From Streptomyces sp. (GTDB taxonomy: Bacteria > Actinomycetota > Actinomycetes > Streptomycetales > Streptomycetaceae), in NCBI RefSeq assembly GCF_019510245.1, contig NZ_JAEKKT010000127.1, positions 124,001-188,000 on the forward strand: a stretch of DNA of 64,000 nt, in the 5' to 3' direction. How positions within the stretch are numbered: position 1 is the stretch's first letter; each line of letters begins with the position of its first letter. Position numbers and translations under genes: made by a program. The notes under the pieces were generated by a model. It was not told the DNA's origin. It worked only from the letters and a program-made list of their open reading frames with translations, and searched no databases. Shown in pieces: positions 1-12,636 of the stretch.

Positions 1-1721
1 GAGCAGGTGCCCTCGCAGGTCGGCCAGCCGTAGTTGGCGCCCGGCTTGATCAGGTTCAGCTCGTCCTTGGAGCTGTTGCCGAACTCGGCCTCCCACAGGC
101 GCCCGTTGCGGTCGAAGGCGAGGCCCTGCGGGTTGCGGTGGCCGAGGCTGTAGACGTAGTTGCCGAAGGGGTTGCCGGGGGCCGGTTTCCCGTCGGTCGT
201 CATGCGCAGGATCTTGCCGTTGAGGGAGTTCTTGTCCTGGGCCAGGTCGGGTGTCTGGGCCTCCCCGGTGGAGACGTAGAGGTAGCCGTCGGGGCCGAAG
301 AGGAGCCGGCCGCCGTTGTGGTAGCGGTTCTTCTTGATGCCCTGGAGGAGGATCTTGTAGTCGCTGAGCTTGGTGCCGTCGTAGGTCATGCGCACGACCC
401 GGTTGCCCTCGTCCGCGGTGTGCATGAAGTAGACGTAGTGGTTGGTCTCCCACTTGGGGTCGACGGCGACGCCGAGCAGGCCGCCCTCGCCGTTGGTGGT
501 GACGGCGTTCGGGACGGTGCCGACCTGGGTCCTCGTGCCGTCCTTGGTGACCTTCCAGACCTTGAAGTCGTCCCGCTCGGTGACCAGGGCGGTCTTGCCG
601 TCGGGCATCCAGTAGGTGCCCCAGGGGATGGTCCAGCCGCTGGAGAGCGTCGCGATCGAGGAGGGGACGCCACCGTCGGTCGCGCACGCCTTCGTGGTGA
701 AGGTGACGGTGTTGCCGGGCTCGGAGACGTTGCCGGCCGCGTCCCGGGCGACGACGTTCAGGCTGTAGGGGCTGTTGCACGCGAGTCCGGTGAGCGTGGT
801 GGACGTGCCGCTGGTGACGGTGTCGTAGACGGTGGTGTCGCTGCGCACGTCGTAGGCGACGACCGCCCTGTCGTCGGTCGAGGCGCCCCACTTGAGGTCG
901 GCGCTGTTCGCGGTCACGTTGCTCGCGGACAGCGTGCCCGGCTTGCTCGGCGGGATGGTGTCGGAGCTGGGCTTGGTGGTGCAGTCGACGACCGGGCTGG
1001 CGGGCGAGGTGTTGCCGGCCGCGTCGCGGGCGATCACGGTGAGGTTGTAGTCGGTGTTGGGGGTGAGCCCGGTCAGCGCCTTGGAGGTCGAGCTCCCCGG
1101 CGCCTCGCTGATCTTGTTGCCGTGCTCGTAGATGTCGTACGCGCTCACGCCCACGTTGTCCGTGGCCGCGCCCCAGGCCAGGGTGAGCGCGTCCTCGCCG
1201 ATGTCCGAGCAGCTGGGCTGCCCGGGGCGGGACGGGGCCTGGGTGTCGGCGGCCGCGTCGAGGCTGACGCGGTCGAGGTTGGGGCCGCCGTTGGCCGTGG
1301 TGGCGGTGGCCCTGATCTTGTCGGTGCCCGCGCTCAGCGGGACGTTGACGGTCTTGGTGACCCAGGTGTTCCAGTCGGCGGTGGCCGGGAAGGACACCCC
1401 GGAGGCGACGACCGTGCCGTTGACGGAGATGTCCATCGGCCGGTCGGTGGAGGTCCCGTTGGCGTAGCGCAGGGTGAGGGCGGAGGTGCCGGCGGAGGCC
1501 GCGCTCACCGTGAACTCCACGTAGGAGCCGTTGACGTTGGTGTAGTCGACGAATCCGGTGCCGGTGTACCCGGTGTGGTTGGTGGCGACGGTGCCCTGGG
1601 AGATCGTCGCGTCCTCGGCCTGGTAGTCGGGGGCGGCCAGCGCGGTGCCCTGGCCGAGTCCGGCGAGCGGCAGCGCCAGGGCCGCCGCGACGCCGTACGG
1701 CAGAACTCTTCTGATGTTCAC
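1..1721 (-). CDS. Secreted PQQ-dependent sugar dehydrogenase with CBM and two FN3 domains (3' end cut by window)
   Basis: This gene is absent from the ORF track because its stop lies outside the window. About 573 codons are visible from a GTG start preceded by GAGGGGAACATCC. The product begins with a signal peptide ending near ALAAPDYQAED. Next come a CBM6/35-like beta-sandwich (about 30-155), two fibronectin III domains (about 160-252 and 254-344), and the start of a soluble-glucose-dehydrogenase-type quinoprotein propeller. The motifs YHNGGRLLFGPDGYLYVSTG and GHRNPQGLAFD fit this fold, which binds PQQ and calcium and oxidises sugars outside the cell. The start lies 11 nt after the GH27/GH18 stop, so it is the last visible gene of the pqq/pectin operon. 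The substrate is not readable. Fungal relatives (AA12) oxidise fucose and other pyranoses, which would suit the fucosidase-like neighbour; that is inference. Confidence 0.9.
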   Translation of the reverse strand, partial: MNIRRVLPYGVAAALALPLAGLGQGTALAAPDYQAEDATISQGTVATNHTGYTGTGFVDYTNVNGSYVEFTVSAASAGTSALTLRYANGTSTDRPMDISVNGTVVASGVSFPATADWNTWVTKTVNVPLSAGTDKIRATATTANGGPNLDRVSLDAAADTQAPSRPGQPSCSDIGEDALTLAWGAATDNVGVSAYDIYEHGNKISEAPGSSTSKALTGLTPNTDYNLTVIARDAAGNTSPASPVVDCTTKPSSDTIPPSKPGTLSASNVTANSADLKWGASTDDRAVVAYDVRSDTTVYDTVTSGTSTTLTGLACNSPYSLNVVARDAAGNVSEPGNTVTFTTKACATDGGVPSSIATLSSGWTIPWGTYWMPDGKTALVTERDDFKVWKVTKDGTRTQVGTVPNAVTTNGEGGLLGVAVDPKWETNHYVYFMHTADEGNRVVRMTYDGTKLSDYKILLQGIKKNRYHNGGRLLFGPDGYLYVSTGEAQTPDLAQDKNSLNGKILRMTTDGKPAPGNPFGNYVYSLGHRNPQGLAFDRNGRLWEAEFGNSSKDELNLIKPGANYGWPTCEGTC

Positions 1722-1732
1722 GGATGTTCCCC

Positions 1733-3982
1733 TCAGCCCGTGTACTGGGTGAAGACCTTGAGGTAGTCGTACGGCTGCTGCGTCACGCCGCTGCAGGCGT
1801 CGCCGTCGGTGCCCGAGCCGCAGGCCCGGTCGCGGTTGACGGCCCAGTAGGTGAGCCGCCCGATGTGGTGCTGCTGGGCGTAGGCGAGCATGGTCTTGAA
1901 GTCGGCCACCCTGACCCGCTCACCGGAGTCGTCGGTCTTGCCGTTCATCGACGACAGCCCGATGTGCGTGTAGGCGGTGGCGTCGCTGTAGCCGTACGCC
2001 GACTTCACCTGCGCTTTGAGGCCTTCCATGGCCTTGGTGGTGAGGCTGCCCATGTTCGTGGTGCCGCCGCCGAAGTCGAACGGCATGATGCACCAGACGT
2101 CGTTCGCCAGACCGGAGTTCGCGGCCCGCTTGATCATGTCGGTGCCGGTGGAGTCGGGGCCGCTGGAGGTGGTGCCGAAGGTGATGACGGTCTTCAGGCC
2201 CGGGTTGTTCGCCTTCACCGTCTTCAGCGCGTCGACGACCCGCTGCCGCACGGTCGCGTTGGACCACTCGGTGTTCTCGATGTCGATGTCGAGTGCCTTC
2301 AGCTTGTAGGCGTTGATCACCTTCTGGTACGCGCCGGCGAGCGCGGAGGCGCTGGAGCACTTCTCGCCGAGCTTGTTCCCGCTCCAGCCGCCGACGGAGA
2401 CGACGACGTCACCGCCCGCCGCTCTGATCGCGTTGATGGTGGACTGGTCGCTGCCCCCGGTCAGCGGGCGGGAGCCGTCCCACTTCGGGTTGCAGGTGCC
2501 GTCGGAGAGGATGAAGGCGAGCGTGAACCACTTGACGCCGGTCGCGGACATCACGGAGGTCGGGTTCTGGGGGCTGCCCCAGCCGAGGTACTCGTAGGGG
2601 GCCACGGCGAATCCCGGCGAAGCGGCCGCCGTCTTCAGGGAGTTGACGGGCTTGACCCGGATGAGCCTGGTCTCGCCCGGACGCAGGGTCGCGCTGTAGG
2701 AGTCGGCGATCACGCCCTTGTGGGATCCGGACCAGAGGTCGGTCACGTCGCCCCAGCCGCTGAAGCCGACCTGCGACCAGTTCACGCTCACCGTGGCGTT
2801 GCCCGAGGTACCGGTGTTGAACAGGGCCACGACGTACTGCCCGTCGCTCTCCTTCTTGCTCCAGACCTGCTTCACACCGCTGCTCACGATCCGCTTCGCG
2901 GCGACCCCGTCCTGGTCGACGCCGATCAGCCGGTCGTTGGTCAGCATCGCCTTGTCGACGGGGTCGAGCTGGGTGAGGTCGGTGCCCAGCAGCAGCGGGG
3001 CCGCCGCCATCGACCAGAGCGTGAAGTGCGAGCGGCGCTGGTCCGCCGTCAGGCCCACCTGGTCGCCGTTGCCGATCTCCAGCGAGTCCAGGTCGTTCCA
3101 GCCGCCGGGGCCGGCGTACTGCTGCCAGGAGGCGGCCGAGTCGAAGCGCTTGGAGACGTGGGACCAGTCGGTCAGCGGATAGCCGCTGCCGTTGCTCCCC
3201 GGCCCGCAGTAGCACTCGACGTCACCCTGGGTGCGCCAGCTGTTCGCCAGTTTCCGCCAGGTGGCGGCGTCGGCGATCGGCAGGTTGTTGGACAGGGCGA
3301 AGTTGATGGGCCGTCCGCTCGCCCGCAGCGCCTTGTCCCAGGCCTGGACGTCGGGGATGTCGGCGCTGCCCACCCCGTCGATCTTCAGGTAGTCGACACC
3401 CCAGGACGCGAACTGCTTGGCCCAGGAGTTGACGAAGTCCTGCGCGCCCGGCTTGGAGTAGTCGATGGCGTACATGTTCTTGCAGTTGTAGTTCTTCTCG
3501 GTCGTGGACGTGTCCGCGATGTCCTTCGCGTGGTACGAGGTGCCCTCGATCGGCGTGTTCTTGGTGACGGCGTTCTTCGCGATGCCGGGGGTGACGTAGA
3601 AGCCGAACTTCAGGCCCTTGGAGTGGACGTAGTCGGCCACCCCTTTGATGCCGTCCGGGAACTTGCCGGTGTCGACGGCCCAGCGGCCGTAGCCGTCCAC
3701 GGTGAAGCCGTTGGAGTCGCACTTCTGCCAGAAGTCGTCGAGGTTGACATAGACGAAGCCGTGGTCCTTCAGGCCGCTGGAGACCAGCGCGTCGGCCTGC
3801 GCCTTGATCTTCGCCTCGGTCGGCGTGCGGCGCACGAAGCTCCAGCTGGACCAGCCCATGGCGGGCCGTGCGGACTGGCCGTTGTCGGAGGCGGCCGCCG
3901 GGTGGGCGGTACCCACGAGCGGCACCGCCGCCGCGATGAGCAGGCCCGCCGCCGCGGCCGTGAGCGATCTGAACCGGATCAC
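1733..3982 (-). CDS. Secreted two-enzyme fusion: GH27 alpha-galactosidase + GH18 chitinase-like domain
   Basis: I start at GTG 3982, not the track's 4027, because it has GGGGGA before it, begins a signal peptide (IRFRSLTAAAAGLLIAAAVP), and forms a GTGA overlap with the upstream stop. Length is 749 aa. Residues about 30-440 are GH27: PAMGWSSWSF at the front, the nucleophile region DYLKIDG near 199, and the acid/base region GGWNDLDSLEIGN near 297. This part should release terminal alpha-galactose (or beta-arabinopyranose in some members). Residues about 447-749 form a GH18-type barrel (YEYLGWGSPQNP, VSVGGWSG) with the catalytic DxDxE pattern as LDIDIENTEW near 566. A GH18 module fused behind GH27 inside a pectin operon is unexpected. 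Its true substrate may not be chitin. Confidence 0.88.
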   Translation of the reverse strand: MIRFRSLTAAAAGLLIAAAVPLVGTAHPAAASDNGQSARPAMGWSSWSFVRRTPTEAKIKAQADALVSSGLKDHGFVYVNLDDFWQKCDSNGFTVDGYGRWAVDTGKFPDGIKGVADYVHSKGLKFGFYVTPGIAKNAVTKNTPIEGTSYHAKDIADTSTTEKNYNCKNMYAIDYSKPGAQDFVNSWAKQFASWGVDYLKIDGVGSADIPDVQAWDKALRASGRPINFALSNNLPIADAATWRKLANSWRTQGDVECYCGPGSNGSGYPLTDWSHVSKRFDSAASWQQYAGPGGWNDLDSLEIGNGDQVGLTADQRRSHFTLWSMAAAPLLLGTDLTQLDPVDKAMLTNDRLIGVDQDGVAAKRIVSSGVKQVWSKKESDGQYVVALFNTGTSGNATVSVNWSQVGFSGWGDVTDLWSGSHKGVIADSYSATLRPGETRLIRVKPVNSLKTAAASPGFAVAPYEYLGWGSPQNPTSVMSATGVKWFTLAFILSDGTCNPKWDGSRPLTGGSDQSTINAIRAAGGDVVVSVGGWSGNKLGEKCSSASALAGAYQKVINAYKLKALDIDIENTEWSNATVRQRVVDALKTVKANNPGLKTVITFGTTSSGPDSTGTDMIKRAANSGLANDVWCIMPFDFGGGTTNMGSLTTKAMEGLKAQVKSAYGYSDATAYTHIGLSSMNGKTDDSGERVRVADFKTMLAYAQQHHIGRLTYWAVNRDRACGSGTDGDACSGVTQQPYDYLKVFTQYTG

Positions 3983-6900
3983 GACTGTCCCCCGTTCTCG
4001 GGTGTGGCGTACGACGTGCCGATCCACGCCTCGTCGACCCGCAGTCGCTTGTAGCGGGTGGTGTCGCTGGAGGCCGCCCAGGTGGTGTCGACCTCGAGCC
4101 GGACGTAGCGGGCGTTGGCCGCGGTCAGGTCGATGCCCTGGATGCCCCGGCGACTGGGCAGCTGGCCGGTCTTGACCGCGCTCCCCCAGTTGGTGCCGTC
4201 GTTGCTGACGTACACCTTGTAGTCCTTGATCCGCGCGGACTGCTCGGTGTCCGAGCGGGCGTAGGCCACGGAGTCCTCGCGCTGGTTGAGCCCGATGTAC
4301 TGCACCTTCTTGGCCGAGCCGAGGTCGAAGGTGAGGTTCACGGGCAGCGTCTTGTTGTTGTCCCAGTAGGTGAGGTAGTCGCCGTCACCGGCCGCCGACG
4401 CGGCGTGCCCGCTCGCGGAGGCGCTCGCGCTGACCTTGACGCCGGTGAGGATGCCCTGGCGGCCGGCCGTCGTGACCTTGAAGACCGTGTCGTACGGGTC
4501 CCAGTTGCCGAGCCCGTTCAGGGTGAGCACGCCGCCGGACTGCGACCACGACACGGGCGCTCCCGTGCGGAGGTTGGTGACGGAGGCGATGCGGTAGCCG
4601 TTGTCCCGCACGCGCAGCGTGCTGGTGCTGGGCGGGGTCAGGACGTGGATGTACTGCCGGTTCGCGTCGTCCTTGGCGATGGTCGTCACGCCGTACGCGC
4701 CGTCGTTCCAGGCGCCGGGCTTGAGGCCGCCGTACATGTAGCCGCCGCCCTCGGTGCCGTGCAACGACTCCCAGATGGGGTCGAGGTAGGAGTCGGCGAA
4801 GTTGTTGAAGGCGGCCTGGTTCGATGGGAACTTCCCGTTGACCTGGGCGGTCTCGGCCATCAGGGCCTTCACCGAGGAGCCGACGTTGGTGACGAGGCGG
4901 CCGAGGGTCAGCATCTTGTCGACGGACGGGTCGGAGCCGTCGTACCACCAGGCGCCGGTCGAGGGCAGCTTGAAGTCGGCCTCGGTCAGGCGGGGCTGGG
5001 CGGTGTAGACGGCCTGGGGGTAGTCGTAGGACGGCGTCATGCCCGTCTTCTGCTCATTGCTGATCATGTCCATGATCGGCGTGTCTTCGTTGTTGTTGCT
5101 GAGCGTGTAGTTCGGGCGCTTGTCGTAGATCTGCTGGTAGAGGTTGTGGCTCTCCCAGTAGGAGTTGTCGTTGTCGATCCAGAAGCCCCCGAGGTCGGGA
5201 TAGCGGTCCATGACCTCGAAGAAGTTGTCGTAACTGAACTGGCCGAAGCCGTCGTTGGTGGTCAGGTCGACGTTCTTGCCCTTGTAGGCGGAGTACGCGG
5301 CGGAGTCGAGCCACTCGTGGCCGCCCTCGTCGTGCCACTGCGGGTCGTTGGTCATGTAGAGGATGACCTTCATGCCCTTGGCCTTGGCGGCGGTGATCAG
5401 CTCCCCGAGGAAGTCCCGCTTGGTGGAGCAGGAGCCGGGGATCTTGGAGGGCCAGGGGCGGGCGTAGCCCAGCCGGCTGTGGAAGGTGGCCAGGACCAGG
5501 TACTGGGTGTGCAGTTTCTGGGCCTCCTTCACCCAGTAGTCGGGGGTCCAGCCGCCGTTGGTGACGTCGTTCTCCCAGGCGGTGCAGCTGGTGTGGGCCG
5601 GTGCGGTGCGCAGGCCCCAGTGCAGGAACAGGCCGCCGACGGAGGCGCGGAGGAAGTCCTGGCGGGGGTTCTCCAGGTCGAGCGGCTTCACTGCCGCACT
5701 ACTGCCGCAGTCCTGGCCTCCCGAGACCCGCAGGGCGCCGCCGGAGGTGTTGTGGCTGTCCGTCAGGCAGCCGCCGGTGACGTCCTGGAAGCCCACGTCG
5801 AAGGGCGAGTTGCTGCCCTTCTGCGCGGTGAACCGGGTGAGCCGGATGCCGCTTGCCGCGTTGGCGACGAACGCGGGCCGGCCGTCGTTCGAGGCGAACT
5901 TGACCGAGCTGTCGGTGAACTGGACGTTGTCTGCGTTGTGCAGGTACCAGCCGTAGGCGGGCCGGGTGCCGATGCTCTTCGGGTTGTAGTCGGTCGAGTC
6001 GTTGCTCGGCACGCCCGTGGACATGGTGCCGTTGCCGCCGGGGACCGTGATGTTGACGTTGTTGAAGGTGACGCCGTTGATGCGGTGCCCGGACTCGCCC
6101 CACAGGGTCGGGCTGAAGGAGGGGCTGTTGCCGGTGGCGGTGATGTTGTCGTACGTGACATCACTGATCGATCCGACACCCGGGCTGTTGCCGCAGCGTT
6201 TGCGGGTGCCGATCTTCTCCATGATCGGCGAGTGCACGTTCGTCATCGTGATGTCGCGGTAGTGGACGTCGGAGATCTTCGAGCCGTCCATGGAGACCAT
6301 GCCGAGACCGGACTTGTCGGCGCCGTCGATGCGGATGTTCTCGAACTGGTAGTCCGAGAAGTCGCCGCAGGTCTCCGAGCCGAACATCAGGGCGTTGCAG
6401 CACTTGGCGCCGAGCAGCGAATCGCTCACCCGCACATGCCCGTTGGGCAGCTTGGCGCCGAGCGCGTAGTCGCTCTTGAAGACCAGGGCGTCGTCGTTGG
6501 CGTGGATGGTGGCGTTGGTGATCGTGGCGTTGGTGGTGGAGATGACGTTCCAGCCGTCGCGGTCGCTCGCGGTGTCGATCGTCAGGTGGTCGGAGGTCAC
6601 GTTGGTGCAGCCGTTGATGAGGGCCGCGAAGTGGCCGCCGCGGCGCAGCGTGAGGCCGTCGCCGAGCCGCAGGCCGTCGCACCGGGTCAGCGAGATGATC
6701 TTGTCGGCCTCACCGGTCTTCGGGTTGCCGGTGATCAGGTTGCCCGCGCCGTCGATGACGCCCTGTCCGACGAAGCCGATGTCGGTGAGCTTGTCGCCGT
6801 AGATCATCGCGTCGTGGAAGTGGCTGTGCCCGTAGTCCTGGTAGGAGTCGTACGGGTTGGACTCGGCCTTGTCGTAGGTGTCCGCGCTGGAGCCCTGGAG

Positions 6901-7221
6901 GGTGGCGCCCTTGTCGAGCTGGAGCGTCACATGGCTCTTCATGTGGAGGGTGTTCTTGGACTTGTAGGTGCCGGCGGTGAAGCGGACGGTGCCGCCGCCG
7001 GCCGCGTTCGCGGCCGTGATGGCCTTGTCGATGGCAGGGCTGTCGTTGGTGGAACCGTCACCCTTGGCGCCGTAGTCACGCACGTCGTAGACGGCGCCGG
7101 CACGCGGTGCGGCGGTCTGCGGGGCGGCGAGGGCCGCGGGGTGGGAGAGGCCGAGGACGACGGCGAGGACGAACAGGATGATTGCGGCGGCACTGCGCCG
7201 CTCGGCGGTGGGGGGTTTCAT
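3979..7221 (-). CDS. Secreted three-module glycosidase: GH28 polygalacturonase-like + GH29 fucosidase-like + CBM32
   Basis: The product is 1080 aa with an N-terminal signal peptide. Residues about 45-500 form a right-handed beta-helix of the pectate lyase/GH28 class: YDVRDYGAKGDGSTNDSPAI at the start, and an Asp pair in HANDDALVFKSD near 244. GH28 enzymes cut galacturonan or rhamnogalacturonan. Residues about 520-890 resemble GH29 alpha-L-fucosidases: GGLFLHWGL near 530 and GGFWIDNDN near 679 at the expected nucleophile position. Residues about 930-1065 are an F5/8-type C (CBM32) sugar-binding domain. The gene overlaps the next one by GTGA and follows the lyase-like gene by 12 nt. The GH28 canonical NTD is not obvious, so the exact linkage is uncertain. 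Fusing backbone and side-chain activities suggests attack on a fucosylated pectic domain (inference). Confidence 0.85.
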   Translation of the reverse strand: MKPPTAERRSAAAIILFVLAVVLGLSHPAALAAPQTAAPRAGAVYDVRDYGAKGDGSTNDSPAIDKAITAANAAGGGTVRFTAGTYKSKNTLHMKSHVTLQLDKGATLQGSSADTYDKAESNPYDSYQDYGHSHFHDAMIYGDKLTDIGFVGQGVIDGAGNLITGNPKTGEADKIISLTRCDGLRLGDGLTLRRGGHFAALINGCTNVTSDHLTIDTASDRDGWNVISTTNATITNATIHANDDALVFKSDYALGAKLPNGHVRVSDSLLGAKCCNALMFGSETCGDFSDYQFENIRIDGADKSGLGMVSMDGSKISDVHYRDITMTNVHSPIMEKIGTRKRCGNSPGVGSISDVTYDNITATGNSPSFSPTLWGESGHRINGVTFNNVNITVPGGNGTMSTGVPSNDSTDYNPKSIGTRPAYGWYLHNADNVQFTDSSVKFASNDGRPAFVANAASGIRLTRFTAQKGSNSPFDVGFQDVTGGCLTDSHNTSGGALRVSGGQDCGSSAAVKPLDLENPRQDFLRASVGGLFLHWGLRTAPAHTSCTAWENDVTNGGWTPDYWVKEAQKLHTQYLVLATFHSRLGYARPWPSKIPGSCSTKRDFLGELITAAKAKGMKVILYMTNDPQWHDEGGHEWLDSAAYSAYKGKNVDLTTNDGFGQFSYDNFFEVMDRYPDLGGFWIDNDNSYWESHNLYQQIYDKRPNYTLSNNNEDTPIMDMISNEQKTGMTPSYDYPQAVYTAQPRLTEADFKLPSTGAWWYDGSDPSVDKMLTLGRLVTNVGSSVKALMAETAQVNGKFPSNQAAFNNFADSYLDPIWESLHGTEGGGYMYGGLKPGAWNDGAYGVTTIAKDDANRQYIHVLTPPSTSTLRVRDNGYRIASVTNLRTGAPVSWSQSGGVLTLNGLGNWDPYDTVFKVTTAGRQGILTGVKVSASASASGHAASAAGDGDYLTYWDNNKTLPVNLTFDLGSAKKVQYIGLNQREDSVAYARSDTEQSARIKDYKVYVSNDGTNWGSAVKTGQLPSRRGIQGIDLTAANARYVRLEVDTTWAASSDTTRYKRLRVDEAWIGTSYATPENGGQS

Positions 7222-7233
7222 GGTGGCGGTTCC

Positions 7234-8022
7234 TCACACCTGTTGGTAGCCGCGGAGGTTGGTGAGCAGGAGATAGGTGTCCTGGAGCGAACCCGAGGTG
7301 TCGCCCAGGGAGCGGTAGATGCCCCACTTCGGACGCACCCGGTCGGCCAGGAAGGTGTCCACGCCCGTCTTCGAGACGTCGATCACGGTGGCGCCGCCGG
7401 ACTTGAGGATCCAGCGGACCGAACCCGCGGAGCCGTTGCCGACCTTGATCTGGAAGTCGACGTCGGTCCATGTGTCGTGCAGCGGGTCGAGGTCGGCACG
7501 GCCGACGATGATGCCGTCGGTGGCGAGGTTCAGCTCGATGGTCTGTTTGCCGTTCACCCGGCGCAGCGACTGCGTGACGATCGGCGAGGTGCCGGAGCCG
7601 GGCTGCTTCATCTGCATGATGTGGGTGAAGGTGGTGGTCGCCTTCAGCGAGCTCGGGATGTACATCGAGTACGTCACCCGCCAGGTCTGGCCCTGGTTCC
7701 ACTTGAGGTAGCTGCTGGAACTCGTGCGCAGGCCGGTGACCTCCTGGCGCTGGCGGTCGGTCGAGGTGTCGCGGTCGACCATGTGCATGTTGAAGCGCCA
7801 GTTGTTGCCGGTGGCGAAGATGTGCGGATGCCCGGCGGGGTGGGAGTCGGCGCGGTCGTCCTCGACGGTCTCGAACGCGCCCAGGCCGTCACTGCTCGCC
7901 GACGGCTGCCACTTCAGCTGCCAGGACGCCGCGTGTGCGGCGGTGGCCGGCAGACCGACGGCCGCTCCCGCGGCTCCGGCGAGCGCGGCTCCGAGAAGAG
8001 CCCTCCTCGATGTTGTGCTCAT
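7234..8022 (-). CDS. Secreted polysaccharide-lyase-like protein (heparin lyase I-type jelly roll), Tat signal
   Basis: The product is 262 aa. It opens with a twin-arginine signal (TTSRRALLGAALAGAAGAAVG). The mature part has alternating beta-strand character with WRFNMHMVDRD, KWNQGQTWRVTYSMYIP, FTHIMQMKQPG and RPKWGIYRSLGD. These recall the bacterial Polysacc_lyase/heparin lyase I-like jelly roll used by several glucuronan and alginate lyase families. Lyases of this type make unsaturated uronic-acid ends. That is exactly what the neighbouring GH105 enzyme removes, so the context supports a lyase acting on a uronate-containing polymer. The gene starts 5 nt after the GH105 stop. Family assignment is from motif memory only, and catalytic residues were not identified. 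Confidence 0.62.
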   Translation of the reverse strand: MSTTSRRALLGAALAGAAGAAVGLPATAAHAASWQLKWQPSASSDGLGAFETVEDDRADSHPAGHPHIFATGNNWRFNMHMVDRDTSTDRQRQEVTGLRTSSSSYLKWNQGQTWRVTYSMYIPSSLKATTTFTHIMQMKQPGSGTSPIVTQSLRRVNGKQTIELNLATDGIIVGRADLDPLHDTWTDVDFQIKVGNGSAGSVRWILKSGGATVIDVSKTGVDTFLADRVRPKWGIYRSLGDTSGSLQDTYLLLTNLRGYQQV

Positions 8023-8027
8023 GACAC

Positions 8028-9212
8028 TCAGTCACCTCGCAGTTGTTCGTTCATGATCAGGAAGGCGCCCAGACCGTGGAAGTCGTTGGTGGCCCGGTCA
8101 CGTGCGATGTAGTACGCGTAGTCGCCGACGTTGGTGCCGATGGAGATGTCGGCGAGGTTGGTGCGGCCGTCGGAGCCGACCGAGAGCTCTGCCAGCACAC
8201 CCTGGTAGCCGCGGTGCGCGACGGTGGCGTAGTGCGGGTCGAGGTAGCCCTGCTGGACGCCGCGGGAGAGGGCGTAGGTGAACATGCTGGAGCAGGAGGT
8301 CTCGGTCCAGTCGTCGGACCGGTTTCCCTTGTCCATCACCTGGAACCAGCGGCCGGTCGCCGGGTCCTGGTACTTCTCCAGACCGGCGGCCAGCTTGCGG
8401 AAGATGGCCAGGAGTTGGGGACGCCGGGCCTGGTTCGCCGGAATGGCGTCCAGGACATTGACGATCGCCATGGAGTACCAGCCGACGGCCCGGCACCAGT
8501 GCTCGGGGGCGAGGCCGGTCTGCGGATCGGCCCAACTGGCGGTCTTCGACTCGTCGTAGGCGTGCTTGAGCAGTCCGTTCGCGACCTGCAGATGACTGCC
8601 GTAGACGTACAGCTGCTTCGCCGCCTCGTCGTCGGTGTAGGCACTGTCGCCGAACTCCTTGCCGTACTCGACGAGGAACGGGTTCACCATGTAGACGCCG
8701 TCCGCCCAGAGTTGATGGGCGCGGCTGCTGGTGTCGGCGTGCCAGAAGCCGCCGTCGCTCGTGCGCGGGTAGGTGTTCAGACGGTCGCGGATCTTCTTGG
8801 CCGCCTTGCGATAGCGGTCCTGGCCCGTCTCGTGGTGCAGAATCACCAGGAGCCGGCCCGCCTGCATGCTGTCCAGGCTGTTAAAGGACTGGTCGATGGA
8901 GCCGTCGCTCTTCACGAACCGGTCGACGTAGTTCTTGATGTAGGTGAGGTAGCGGGGGTCGTGGGTGCGCCGGTAGGTGAGGTACTGGCCGTAGAGGTAG
9001 AGGCCGACCGGGTAGGACCAGCCGCCGATGGTGCTCGGGGTGTAGCGGGCCATGGTGGAGTCGACGACCGCGGTGGACCAGTCGGTGGCCGCGGCCGGCC
9101 TGGCCGGGGCGACGGCCGCGGCGAGGGCGGGCGGGGGGACGGCCGCAGGGAGCGCGACCAGGGGGGCGGTGGTGAGGGCGACGGCCGCGAGGGCGACTCG
9201 CAGGCGTTTCAT
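8028..9212 (-). CDS. Secreted GH105 unsaturated rhamnogalacturonyl hydrolase
   Basis: The product is 394 aa, typical for YteR/RhiN-type GH105 after a long Ala/Pro-rich secretion leader. The (alpha/alpha)6-barrel signatures are WSYPVGLYLYGQYL, LWADGVYMVNPFLVEYG (catalytic Asp region), WCRAVGWYSMAIV and HGLGAFLIMNEQL at the C-terminus. GH105 enzymes hydrate and release the 4,5-unsaturated uronic acid left by pectate or rhamnogalacturonan lyases. Its ATG overlaps the pqqE stop as ATGA, with GGAGG just upstream inside pqqE. Ribosomes finishing PqqE can therefore restart on this gene. Most characterised GH105 enzymes are cytosolic; the leader here predicts export. Confidence 0.9.
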   Translation of the reverse strand: MKRLRVALAAVALTTAPLVALPAAVPPPALAAAVAPARPAAATDWSTAVVDSTMARYTPSTIGGWSYPVGLYLYGQYLTYRRTHDPRYLTYIKNYVDRFVKSDGSIDQSFNSLDSMQAGRLLVILHHETGQDRYRKAAKKIRDRLNTYPRTSDGGFWHADTSSRAHQLWADGVYMVNPFLVEYGKEFGDSAYTDDEAAKQLYVYGSHLQVANGLLKHAYDESKTASWADPQTGLAPEHWCRAVGWYSMAIVNVLDAIPANQARRPQLLAIFRKLAAGLEKYQDPATGRWFQVMDKGNRSDDWTETSCSSMFTYALSRGVQQGYLDPHYATVAHRGYQGVLAELSVGSDGRTNLADISIGTNVGDYAYYIARDRATNDFHGLGAFLIMNEQLRGD

Positions 9213-10300
9213 GGTCCTCCTTCTGCAAGGGCTTCTCTGGGGGCGGCGGCCTCGGAGGTCCGGCGCCGGGGTACGAGGTGGTGGGCGGGGGCGTGGCGGC
9301 AGGCCGGGTCGGTGTTGCGGGCGTCTCCGGTGAGCGCGTACGCCTGGCAGCGGCAGCCGCCGAAGTCGGTGGTGCGCAGGGCGCAGCCACGGCAGGGCTC
9401 GCGCATCCAGGACTCGCCCCGGTAGGCGTTGAACGCCTTCGACTCCGCCCAGATCCAGGCCAGTTCACGGTCCCTGACATGGGGCGGGTCGAGGCCGGGC
9501 AGGGTGGCCGCGGCCGGGCAGGGCAGGACGGTGCCGTCGGGGGTGACGGTGAGCGAGATCCGGCCCCAGCCGCCCATGCAGGGTTTCGCCGTGCCGGTGA
9601 GGAGGTCGGGGGCGACCCAGACCAGCTCCGGTTCGTCCAGGCGCCGGCGCCAGCGCAGGACCGCCTCGCGGGCCCGCTCGACCTGGCCGGGCAGCGGCAG
9701 CAGCGCGGCGCGGTTGCGGGCCGCCCAGCCGTGGTACTGGGTGTTGGCCAGCTCGATCCGGTCCGCGCCCCAGGCCACACCGAGCGCGATCAGGTCCTCG
9801 ACGGCGTCCAGGTTGCCCCGGTGCAGGACGACGTTCAGGCCGAAGGGCAGGCCCGCCGCCCGGATCAGCCGGGCCGCGCGCTCCTTTGCCGCGAACGAGC
9901 GGGCGCCGGCGATGCGTTCGGCGGCGGTCGGCTCCGCGTGCTGCACGGACAGCTGCACACCGCGCAGCCCGGCGCCGACCAGCTCTGCCAGCCGCCGCTC
10001 GCTCAGCCCGAGTCCGCTGGTGACGAGCTGGGTGTGCAGGCCGGCGGTGTCGGCGGCGCCGACCAACTCGGTCAGATCACGTCTGAGCAGCGGCTCGCCA
10101 CCGGACAGGTGGGTCTGGACGACGCCCAGTTCACCAGCCTGCCGGAACACCTCGCTCCACTGCCCGGTCTCCAGCTCCGCTGACCGACCGATCAGTCGGA
10201 CAGGATTCGAGCAGTAGCCGCAGCGCAGCGGACAGGCGTGGGTGAGTTCGGCGAGCAGCGCCCAGGGCGGCGCCGGTCTGCCCGGCTCCGGGGTCGTCAT
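9209..10300 (-). CDS. pqqE: PqqE, radical-SAM PQQ peptide cross-linking enzyme
   Basis: The product is 363 aa, starting at ATG 10300. That ATG overlaps the pqqD stop (ATGA) and has GGAGGG 10 nt upstream; the ATG at 10309 is too close to the same Shine-Dalgarno. The radical SAM cluster motif is CPLRCGYCSNP near residue 20. C-terminal SPASM-type cysteines follow (KPCMGGWGR, LPCPAA, MREPCRGCALRTTDFGGCRC). PqqE joins the Glu and Tyr side chains of PqqA while PqqD presents the peptide, the first chemical step to pyrroloquinoline quinone. The track's 621-aa ORF adds an out-of-frame shadow in front and should not be used. Confidence 0.95.
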   Translation of the reverse strand: MTTPEPGRPAPPWALLAELTHACPLRCGYCSNPVRLIGRSAELETGQWSEVFRQAGELGVVQTHLSGGEPLLRRDLTELVGAADTAGLHTQLVTSGLGLSERRLAELVGAGLRGVQLSVQHAEPTAAERIAGARSFAAKERAARLIRAAGLPFGLNVVLHRGNLDAVEDLIALGVAWGADRIELANTQYHGWAARNRAALLPLPGQVERAREAVLRWRRRLDEPELVWVAPDLLTGTAKPCMGGWGRISLTVTPDGTVLPCPAAATLPGLDPPHVRDRELAWIWAESKAFNAYRGESWMREPCRGCALRTTDFGGCRCQAYALTGDARNTDPACRHAPAHHLVPRRRTSEAAAPREALAEGGP

Positions 10301-10551
10301 CGCAGCCATCCCTCCTTCCGTAACGCCGTCAGGAACTCCGGGACCTCGGCCGCGACCGGGGCGCCCGGGAACGCCTCGGCCAGTTCGGCGACGATCTCCG
10401 GGACCGCCCGGCTGCCGTCGCACAGCCGGAGCACCCCGCCCGCCCGGCCGTGCAGCACGACCACGCGCTCGGGCAGCAGCAACAGGTCCGTGCCACGGAC
10501 CCGGTCGTGGCGCAGTACGACCGCGCGGGCGAGGACGGGCCGCCAGGTCAT
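10297..10551 (-). CDS. pqqD: PqqD, peptide chaperone (RiPP recognition element)
   Basis: The product is 84 aa, the usual PqqD size. It shows the family pattern RPVLARAVVLRHDRVRG, then LLLLPERVVVLHGRAGGVLRLCDG, then a helical C-terminus with VPEFLTALRKEGWLR. PqqD is the founding RiPP recognition element; it binds PqqA and delivers it to PqqE. Its ATG overlaps the pqqC stop and its stop overlaps the pqqE start, both as ATGA. The three proteins should therefore be made in fixed ratio. The ORF track only shows it as the tail of a 250-aa shadow ORF. Confidence 0.93.
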   Translation of the reverse strand: MTWRPVLARAVVLRHDRVRGTDLLLLPERVVVLHGRAGGVLRLCDGSRAVPEIVAELAEAFPGAPVAAEVPEFLTALRKEGWLR

Positions 10552-11303
10552 GGCCCGCCGCCGTCCCGGGCGTCGCCCCAGCCACCGGTGTCCCCGCGGT
10601 CGACGGCGTCGAGCAGTGCCCACAGCACCTCGCACTTGTAGGCGAGCGCGGCCACGGCGCGCTGCTGCTCCTCGCGGGTGCGGGCCCAGGCCTGGACCAG
10701 CGCGAGGGCCTCCGCGCCGTCCCGGGCGCCCTGGTCGACGCGGGTGCGGAAGTAGCCGAGGCCGGCCGGGTCGATCCACGGGTAGTGGCGTTCGAAGGCG
10801 GTGATGCGGGTGCGCATGAGACCGGGCGCGGACAGTTCGGTGAGGGAGGCGGCGACCGCGTCCAGGGCGGGGCGCAGCCGGCAGAAGGTGACGTACCCCT
10901 CGACCGCGAAGCGCACCCCGGGCAGCACCCGGGAGCTGTCCCACAGTTGTTCGCGGGGGACCCCGGCGGCCTCGCCGAGGCGCAGCCAGCGCTCGATGCC
11001 GCCCTCGCCCTCGGCGTTGCCGTCGTGGTCGCGGATGCGCCGCAGCCATGGACGGCGCAGTGCCGGCCGGTCAAGTTTGGCGAGGATCAGGGCGTCCTTG
11101 ACGGGGATGTGGCGCTGGTAGTGGAAGCGGTTGGTGATCCAGCGGCGCAGTTCGGCCGGGGTCAACTCACCCCGGTGCATGCGCTGGTTGAAGGGGTGCC
11201 GGTCGTGGTAGCGGTCGGCGGTGACGGCGCGCAGCCGTTCGGTGAACTCCGGGACCGGCCAGGGGTCGGCGGCCGTCCCGGCGTGGACGGCGGTGACGGT
11301 CAT
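10548..11303 (-). CDS. pqqC: PqqC, pyrroloquinoline-quinone synthase
   Basis: The product is 251 aa, full length for PqqC. It has the all-helical TENA/THI-4-like fold with hallmark segments YHDRHPFNQRMHRGELT, WITNRFHYQRHIPVKDALI and ERHYPWIDPAGLGYFRTR. PqqC carries out the last step, ring closure and eight-electron oxidation of AHQQ to PQQ, without a metal or flavin. The gene starts 20 nt after the pqqA stop, where pqqB would be expected in most clusters, and its stop overlaps pqqD by 4 nt. Confidence 0.95.
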   Translation of the reverse strand: MTVTAVHAGTAADPWPVPEFTERLRAVTADRYHDRHPFNQRMHRGELTPAELRRWITNRFHYQRHIPVKDALILAKLDRPALRRPWLRRIRDHDGNAEGEGGIERWLRLGEAAGVPREQLWDSSRVLPGVRFAVEGYVTFCRLRPALDAVAASLTELSAPGLMRTRITAFERHYPWIDPAGLGYFRTRVDQGARDGAEALALVQAWARTREEQQRAVAALAYKCEVLWALLDAVDRGDTGGWGDARDGGGP

Positions 11304-11323
11304 GATGGCTCACCCAGGACGGA

Positions 11324-11464
11324 TCAGCGGTCGCCGAGGGCGTAGCCGGTCACTTCCAGGGCGGTCTCCACGACCTGGTAACCAGGGCTTCGCCAGACCT
11401 TTTCATCCGATGTCTGCGGGGCGGCGGGCTCCGACTGACGGTCCTCGGAGGTCGTCTCGTTCAT
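11324..11464 (-). CDS. pqqA: PqqA, PQQ precursor peptide
   Basis: This 46-codon ORF is too short for the track. The peptide begins MNETTSEDRQSEP and ends VETALEVTGYALGDR. It contains the diagnostic Glu-x-x-x-Tyr core (EVTGY) whose side chains become PQQ, preceded by WRSPGY as in other PqqA peptides. It is longer at the N-terminus than many 23-30 aa PqqA peptides, as is common in actinobacteria. It is the first gene of the nine-gene minus-strand unit. The Shine-Dalgarno is modest (AGGAAAGCAGG region), which is unusual for a substrate peptide needed in excess over its enzymes. Confidence 0.93.
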   Translation of the reverse strand: MNETTSEDRQSEPAAPQTSDEKVWRSPGYQVVETALEVTGYALGDR

Positions 11465-11799
11465 GGGGTGGATACCTGCTTTCCTGAGGTTGGGGGGATC
11501 TCAGAGTGCAGAGAGAGGGGTCTCCTCTCACAGGGATCGATCGGAAAACCCACAAGGATGTTCACATCCCTGTACCGGGTTCAGTGATAGGTCCGACGAT
11601 GCGCACCAGAGTCTCGGCAGAGACGGGCCGCGGTCAATGGTCCGGACCCATAACGTCGGATGCATTTCCGGCCAATCTCCACCCGCGGCGGCTGAGCCAC
11701 CGGCCAGTTCCGGCAGATTCCGCGGTCAGGAATGCGTCGGGCCCGGTGATCGTTGACGATGGGAGTACCACCTGTCGACAACCTAAGGATCGAGAGCTC
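11465..11799. promoter_or_regulatory. Divergent control region between pqqA operon and aldo/keto reductase
   Basis: This 335-bp non-coding stretch must hold both promoters. It contains an inverted repeat GAGAGG-GGTCT-CCTCTC at 11513-11529 and a perfect 10-bp palindrome GGTCCGGACC at 11639-11648. I could not pick clear -10/-35 pairs. The palindromes are candidate operators or untranslated-region hairpins only. No small ORF with a good ribosome site was seen. Confidence 0.5.
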
Positions 11800-12636
11800 G
11801 TGAGCAGCAAGGTCCCCCCGAAAATCCTCAACAACGGCGTCGAGATGCCCCAGCTGGGCTTCGGCGTGTGGCAGGTGCCGGACGACGAGGCCGAGCGGGC
11901 CGTCGCCACGGCGCTGGAGGCCGGGTACCGCAGCATCGACACAGCGGCGATCTACGGCAACGAAGAAGGCACCGGCAAGGCGATCGCCGCGTCCGGCGTG
12001 CCGCGCGAGGACATCTTCGTCACCACCAAGCTCTGGAACGCCGACCACGGGTACGACGCCACCCTGCGCGCCTTCGACGCGTCGCTGGCGAAGCTGGGCC
12101 TGGACTACCTGGACCTGTACCTCATCCACTGGCCGCTGCCGGGCCGGGGCAAGTACATCGACTCGTACAAGGCGTTCGAGAAGCTGCACGCCGACGGCCG
12201 CATCAAGGCGATCGGCGTCTCCAACTTCCTTCCGGAGCACCTGGAGCGGCTGATCGCGGAGACGTCGGTCATCCCGGCGGTCAACCAGATCGAACTGCAC
12301 CCGCATCTGCAGCAGCACGCGTCCCGGGAGTTCCACGAGGAGCAGGGCATCGCCACCGAGGCCTGGTCACCGCTCGGCCAGGGCAAGGGCCTCCTGGAGG
12401 TGCCGGCGATCGTCGCGATCGCGCAGAAGCACAACCGCACTCCGGCCCAGGTCGTGCTGCGCTGGCACGTCCAGCTCGGCAACGTCGTGATCCCGAAGTC
12501 CGTGACCCCGTCCCGGATCAGGGAGAACATCCAGGTCTTCGACTTCAGCCTGGACACCGAGGACCTCGCGGCGATCAGCGCGCTCAACGAGGACCGGCGC
12601 ATCGGCCCGGACCCGGCCACCTTCGACGTGGGCTGA
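11800..12636 (+). CDS. Aldo/keto reductase (2,5-diketo-D-gluconate reductase-like, AKR5 type)
   Basis: I start at GTG 11800 (AAGGA 10 nt upstream), giving 278 aa; the track ORF adds about 98 unlikely residues. The NADPH-dependent TIM-barrel tetrad is visible: Asp and Tyr in SIDTAAIYGNE, Lys in VTTKLWN, His in YLIHWPLPG. The cofactor-binding tail VIPKSVTPSRIRENI is present. The family reduces aldehydes and ketones including 2,5-diketogluconate. It is monocistronic, divergent from pqqA, and ends in a strong hairpin. Such reductases are common in Streptomyces, so a link to the quinoprotein pathway is only suggested by position. Confidence 0.85.
   Translation: MSSKVPPKILNNGVEMPQLGFGVWQVPDDEAERAVATALEAGYRSIDTAAIYGNEEGTGKAIAASGVPREDIFVTTKLWNADHGYDATLRAFDASLAKLGLDYLDLYLIHWPLPGRGKYIDSYKAFEKLHADGRIKAIGVSNFLPEHLERLIAETSVIPAVNQIELHPHLQQHASREFHEEQGIATEAWSPLGQGKGLLEVPAIVAIAQKHNRTPAQVVLRWHVQLGNVVIPKSVTPSRIRENIQVFDFSLDTEDLAAISALNEDRRIGPDPATFDVG

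Follow-up and report, generated by a model that had tools for sequence, protein, structure and literature searches.

A pqqACDE module heading an operon-like cluster of extracellular carbohydrate-active enzymes and a quinoprotein in Streptomyces, and its repeated loss

The window analysed here is a stretch of 64,000 nucleotides from Streptomyces sp. (contig NZ_JAEKKT010000127.1, positions 124,001 to 188,000). Nine genes at one end of it run from position 11464 past base 1 in the order pqqA-C-D-E, GH105, lyase-like, GH28-GH29-CBM32, GH27-GH18 and GSDH. Model scores are given with the curated cut-off where there is one.

11800..12636, plus strand: aldo/keto reductase-like gene, divergent and outside the operon, conserved as a flank and named by reading the sequence
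11632..11648, minus strand: promoter/operator-like element of the GGTCCGGACC-A-TTGACC type (GGTCCGGACCATTGACC), conserved in ~35 upstream regions
11324..11464, minus strand: pqqA, precursor peptide with an EVTGY core (from its reading frame and motif, with orthologues in related loci)
10548..11303, minus strand: pqqC (TIGR02111, 268 bits, cut-off 240)
10297..10551, minus strand: pqqD (TIGR03859, 69.8, cut-off 46)
9209..10300, minus strand: pqqE, radical SAM/SPASM (TIGR02109, 465, cut-off 381)
8028..9212, minus strand: GH105, YteR-like unsaturated rhamnogalacturonyl hydrolase with a signal-peptide-like N terminus (PF07470, 311 bits; B. subtilis YteR, E = 1e-78)
7234..8022, minus strand: jelly-roll lyase-like protein, predicted to be secreted (PF14099, a weak 33.0 against a cut-off of 29.9)
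3979..7221, minus strand: GH28-GH29-CBM32 fusion, predicted to be secreted (Pfam: GH28 72, GH29 43.7, F5/8 (CBM32) 57)
1733..3982, minus strand: GH27-GH18-like fusion, predicted to be secreted (GH27 as Melibiase_2, 136 bits; GH18 by a match to exochitinase 9buf)
1..1721, minus strand: GSDH quinoprotein, CBM35-fn3-fn3-GSDH (PF07995, 216 bits; nearest solved relative 3das, E = 2e-91)

The successive intergenic gaps are +20, -4, -4, -4, +5, +12, -4 and +11, which reproduces the nine same-strand genes, spaced at -4 to 20 nt, described in the initial annotation, and the ATGA that it reported as shared by the pqqE stop and the GH105 start is visible in the sequence; the GH27-GH18 start overlaps the GH28-GH29-CBM32 stop by 4 nt. 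Its list of nine genes also stood, except that the GH18 domain is backed by PDB similarity and not by Pfam, while the CBM35 and two fn3 domains of GSDH and the absence of pqqB from the operon are additions to it. The GSDH gene extends past the window edge (full protein of 676 aa, L003 15691-17721), leaving ~103 C-terminal residues outside, and the gene that follows is convergent, which places the end of the operon shortly past that edge. PqqA matched no model and was recognised by its core E-V-T-G-Y; those relatives' PqqA peptides that were checked retain ETALEVT(A/G)Y or a near variant. Signal-peptide-like starts were read on the five CAZyme and GSDH proteins. No electron-acceptor gene was found within the operon. 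A scan for terminators gave sites on the opposite strand only, with scores not far above shuffle level, and a sigma-70 scan of the locus returned no promoter, the conserved promoter-like element departing from the consensus used. Gene order and spacing support one operon-like unit that is presumably co-transcribed.

The GGTCCGGACC palindrome lies directly upstream of the -35-like TTGACC, with a -10-like GACTCT ~18 nt on. The GGTCCGGACCATTGACC element or a near variant was found upstream of pqqA, or of GH105 where the pqq genes are gone, in ~35 loci both with and without pqq genes, and (A/G)ACTCT follows it after 17–18 nt across these loci. The operon copy is the only exact one in its own genome, which holds one other copy at ≤1 mismatch. 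A GH18 chitinase gene of this genome (L229 8498-9739; G000:C401) carries the 17-nt element with one mismatch ~96 nt upstream. Short repeats are present in Streptomyces chitinase promoters, and the binding site of DasR is A(G/C)TGGTCTAGACCA(G/C)T (PMC6097792); the GGTC and GACC arms of this dre site match the operon palindrome and the inner bases differ.

At least 15 further genomes of the genus show the same gene order, some genes being missing or fused, as do two named species, S. fuscichromogenes and S. alanosinicus. Sampling in depth covered this one genus: among 394 genomes, 88 had PqqC above the model cut-off, and the surroundings of 102 pqq clusters were compared with the window proteins. 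Clusters whose PqqC was ≥60% identical formed the window clade (clade B), with 77 of the 102; the other 25 belonged to other clades. GSDH lay within 14 kb of 55/77 clade-B clusters, or 57/77 when L061 and L062, where it falls just past the limit, are included. At least one of GH105, lyase, GH28, GH29, GH27 and GH18 was near 36/77, and either GSDH or a gene of this pectinase set was near 67/77. Outside clade B the corresponding counts were 0/25 for GSDH and 1/25 for the pectinase set (a weak GH27). Fisher P values were 7e-12 for GSDH and 7e-5 for the pectinase set, both made optimistic by the relatedness of the genomes. These counts, together with the recurrence of the order in relatives, bear out the earlier claim that the adjacency is not due to chance.

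The enzymes themselves are arranged variably. GH28, GH29, CBM32, GH27 and GH18 form one protein of ~1,800 aa in three loci (L053, L055 and L070) and are separate proteins in L061, L062 and L078, several of them with a CBM35 like that of the quinoprotein. A GH8 enzyme is found between GH18 and GSDH in two loci (L062 2895-4538; L216 16802-18076), once with a CBM35, hinting at a chitosan- or xylan-like target. In Catelliglobosispora koreensis, which belongs to another family, a pqq cluster that is of a different clade and ends in pqqB (L144 539-16237) is flanked by GH28-CBM35, a lyase, GH27-CBM35, CBM35-GH18 and CBM35-GSDH; this may be an independent link or the result of an exchange of the pqq part. 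A further pqq cluster in the window's own genome (L027, G000:C111, 4780-9797) is of another clade, includes pqqB and adjoins the gene for a PF01011 quinoprotein dehydrogenase, and this cluster seems to be paired with a client of its own; its contig is short and, the genome having 7% contamination, may not belong to the strain. Plasmids yielded no close PqqE relative, all matches being below 60% identity. In the open-licence literature we found neither the pqqB split nor the loss series described, nor any operon for polysaccharide degradation that includes PQQ biosynthesis, which agrees with the initial annotation, to which no described operon combining these genes was known; the individual parts are already known, and it is their combination that is without a description found.

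The families and signal-peptide-like starts of the encoded proteins agree with the proposal that extracellular CAZymes for a uronate polymer accompany a secreted GSDH. GH105 matched its family model and has as its nearest solved relative YteR, whose substrate is the unsaturated galacturonyl-rhamnose end. The GH28 part matched an NCBIfam BT4146-like rhamnogalacturonidase model below its cut-off, and the GH29 part matched PF01120 (43.7 over 25.2); the structural model of the latter was of low confidence (pLDDT 53), and all 50 of its fold matches listed were to fucosidases. The lyase-like protein had no PDB sequence match at E 0.1, and a fold search with its predicted structure returned PL7, PL20 and heparinase I at TM ~0.5, so that its assignment as a lyase is weak. 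The GH18 part matched exochitinase 9buf over aa 462-747 (E = 2e-48).

CBM35 modules of the uronate-binding group bind glucuronate and lyase-made unsaturated galacturonate. Over 123 aligned columns, the quinoprotein's CBM35 and Chi-CBM35 (2vzp) of an exo-beta-D-glucosaminidase have 64% identity, and Trp, Asn, His and Arg, the residue types of the uronate group, are common to both. Since Chi-CBM35 belongs to the uronate-binding group (PMC9843283), the module of the quinoprotein is a putative uronate binder. We infer that the target polymer bears fucose and galactose and contains uronate, as rhamnogalacturonan does. There are pointers to chitin or fungal walls besides pectin (the GH18 part, the GH8 of relatives and the chitinase with the common promoter element), and the target could instead be fungal or chitin-containing material, with the operon as a branch of the chitin regulon. 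The resemblance of the GH18 part to an exochitinase, the near-identical element ~96 nt upstream of a chitinase gene in the same genome, the GH8 in L062 and L216, and a CBM35 nearest to that of an exo-beta-D-glucosaminidase would all fit such a target, but a YteR-like GH105, a rhamnogalacturonidase-like GH28 and a lyase-like gene would not, and the palindrome differs from the published dre core (PMC6097792). We regard a chitin target as unlikely and retain a uronate-containing polymer as the preferred reading.

GSDH scored 128 against a cut-off of 434.6 with the PQQ subfamily model TIGR03606, a comparison made with the copy cut by the window edge. The catalytic His, Arg and Asn and the RxR positions were invariant in 40/40 sequences, and the use of PQQ is predicted from family membership. 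The initial annotation had suggested that the quinoprotein could feed electrons to LPMOs; this is unsupported, the operon having no AA10 gene and the same genome having two elsewhere.

The pqqB gene is absent from the operon. Its own genome has one copy in the other-clade cluster (C111) and one orphan copy (G000:C406:99345). Among the 394 genomes, 18 had a pqqB-less cluster of the window clade, and an orphan pqqB was found in 16/18 (Fisher P = 4e-16, from the best five candidates per genome, a value that kinship makes optimistic); one further genome of the 18 (G217) had pqqB in a second cluster. In the tree, the eight orphan pqqB genes examined group together as one clade (SH-aLRT 98) within the pqqB genes of A-C-D-E-B clusters, adjoining Nocardia and Pseudonocardiales and apart from those of this operon type. 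Because two related operons that also have the aldo/keto reductase-like gene upstream (L089 and L216) retain their own pqqB, and the orphans are of other ancestry, we conclude that the operon lost its pqqB; the orphan gene, with its separate ancestry, probably takes its place in trans. A search for an operator common to the operon and the orphan pqqB found none; the orphan is without the palindrome and sits behind another gene. This gene, just upstream, encodes 370 aa with a membrane-like start, as read from the sequence, and no Pfam family (L030 8295-9407), and is a possible operon partner of pqqB. Broken pqqB copies were seen in five genomes that have no pqqC (G007, G196, G342, G393 and G177), which is what decay of pqqB after loss of the other genes would produce.

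With GH29 as a tracer, 38 close homologues (≥79%) were found in the 394 genomes; pqqC was present in the same operon in 18 and intact pqqC was missing in 20. Where their flanks are present, these 20 loci likewise adjoin the aldo/keto reductase-like gene and an acyl-CoA synthetase-like gene, and the former was found in nearly all loci with and without pqq. In one locus pqqA contains a stop codon and pqqC, D and E are gone (L240); another has cysteine in place of the pqqA core tyrosine, plus a scrap of pqqE (L246); in five the sole pqq remnant is a pqqA scrap around ACATCGGATGAAA (L247, L252, L254, L255 and L258); and one keeps D and E alongside a truncated pqqC (L250). GH105 follows directly after the promoter element in L241, L244, L245, L248 and L251. 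Such scraps in several pqq-deficient loci indicate loss. On a midpoint-rooted tree from GH105, GH29 and GSDH, loci with pqq lie at the base and the pqq label changes nine times (8–10 over bootstraps), with at least five changes forced by well-supported branches, so that the pqq part was lost about nine times. The initial annotation had considered that the two halves might rarely co-occur, and on this the result is divided: they stand together in 18/38 loci and apart in 20/38, several of the latter with pqq scraps. Its description of the unit as self-contained does not hold, with pqqB encoded elsewhere and the pqq part absent or decayed at the same site in those 20 loci.

That the pqq part is missing at one site in 20/38 loci might suggest a neutral neighbourhood, in which two adjacent units came together by chance and were inherited together. 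We disfavour this reading and consider it very improbable, given the 4-nt overlaps, the common conserved promoter element and the finding of GSDH beside pqq again in loci with other arrangements and in a second family. The linked reading is therefore kept, with cofactor supply as a dispensable module.

A full GSDH domain was retained in 17/20 loci without intact pqqC, and 13 of these 17 genomes had neither PqqC nor PqqE above cut-off. The dN/dS of GSDH was 0.09–0.19 in pairs without pqq, vs 0.07–0.18 in pairs with pqq, which is purifying selection; pqqC and pqqE of intact operons are constrained too (0.1–0.33). One explanation of these retained genes is that GSDH is a sugar-binding or sugar-oxidising propeller working without PQQ, and that the pqq genes served another client and were lost as passengers. 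The 17 kept domains and the 13 genomes speak for it, but GSDH accompanies 57/77 clade-B clusters and 0/25 others, its catalytic and PQQ-region residues are invariant, and the other pqq cluster of the same genome seems to be paired with a different quinoprotein; we hold this explanation to be quite unlikely. With GSDH taken as PQQ-dependent, repeated loss of pqq with GSDH kept means that home-made PQQ is useful but replaceable, and suggests that PQQ from outside replaces it. A bolder view, which we put forward tentatively and at somewhat less than even odds, is that PQQ is a shared good among pectin-degrading Streptomyces: producers would keep pqqACDE at the head of the CAZyme operon and rely on a pqqB that is unlinked and of separate ancestry, and sister species that repeatedly deleted pqqACDE would keep the secreted quinoprotein and live on the PQQ of their neighbours.

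Overall, we propose that one mRNA encodes the uronate-polymer enzymes, a CBM35-held aldose dehydrogenase and most of the PQQ pathway, with PqqB supplied in trans and a dispensable cofactor module; we give this model as a whole a probability of about 0.6. The secreted enzymes would open up a uronate polymer decorated with fucose and galactose, such as rhamnogalacturonan, and the CBM35 would park the secreted six-bladed dehydrogenase on uronate or lyase-cut chain ends, near the products. There it may oxidise C1 of an aldose set free by the secreted enzymes, much as fungal AA12 oxidises L-fucose, and pass the electrons to an acceptor. The pqqACDE products would charge it with PQQ, completed in trans by the PqqB encoded elsewhere, and lineages without pqqACDE would presumably load the retained dehydrogenase with PQQ from their surroundings. 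Such an arrangement would tie a redox cofactor pathway to one extracellular polysaccharide system in Gram-positive soil bacteria, give a secreted quinoprotein a concrete physiological setting, and divide a cofactor pathway, with one part in an operon and the other in an unlinked gene of different origin. The natural series of some nine cofactor-pathway losses with the client enzyme kept makes PQQ exchange among soil bacteria directly testable.

Compared to Bacteroidetes-type PULs, the operon has no SusC/SusD pair or transporter of its own among its genes. It contains the same kind of GH105 and GH28 as YteR-type rhamnogalacturonan loci, plus a lyase-like gene, and differs from them in adding GH27, GH18, GH29, a quinoprotein and cofactor genes and in being without a transporter. 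A GGTC..GACC palindrome is common to it and to the Streptomyces chitinase promoter repeats and DasR dre, but here it stands beside a -35-like hexamer and has inner bases CG, cf. TA in dre (PMC6097792), and its operator role is putative. The fungal AA12 PQQ pyranose dehydrogenases CcPDH and TrAA12 are related to bacterial soluble GDH and oxidise L-fucose, and CcPDH carries a CBM and drives LPMOs (PMC5960967, PMC6881810); the enzyme described here is bacterial, is closest among solved structures to 3das, and has CBM35 and fn3 domains in place of the heme b domain and CBM1 of AA12. As in pqqABCDE operons, including those beside a client quinoprotein, PqqC, PqqD and PqqE are above curated cut-offs, PqqA is recognised by its motif and a candidate client is nearby, whereas here pqqB lies outside the operon, its function probably supplied by the orphan gene, and extracellular CAZymes lie within it.
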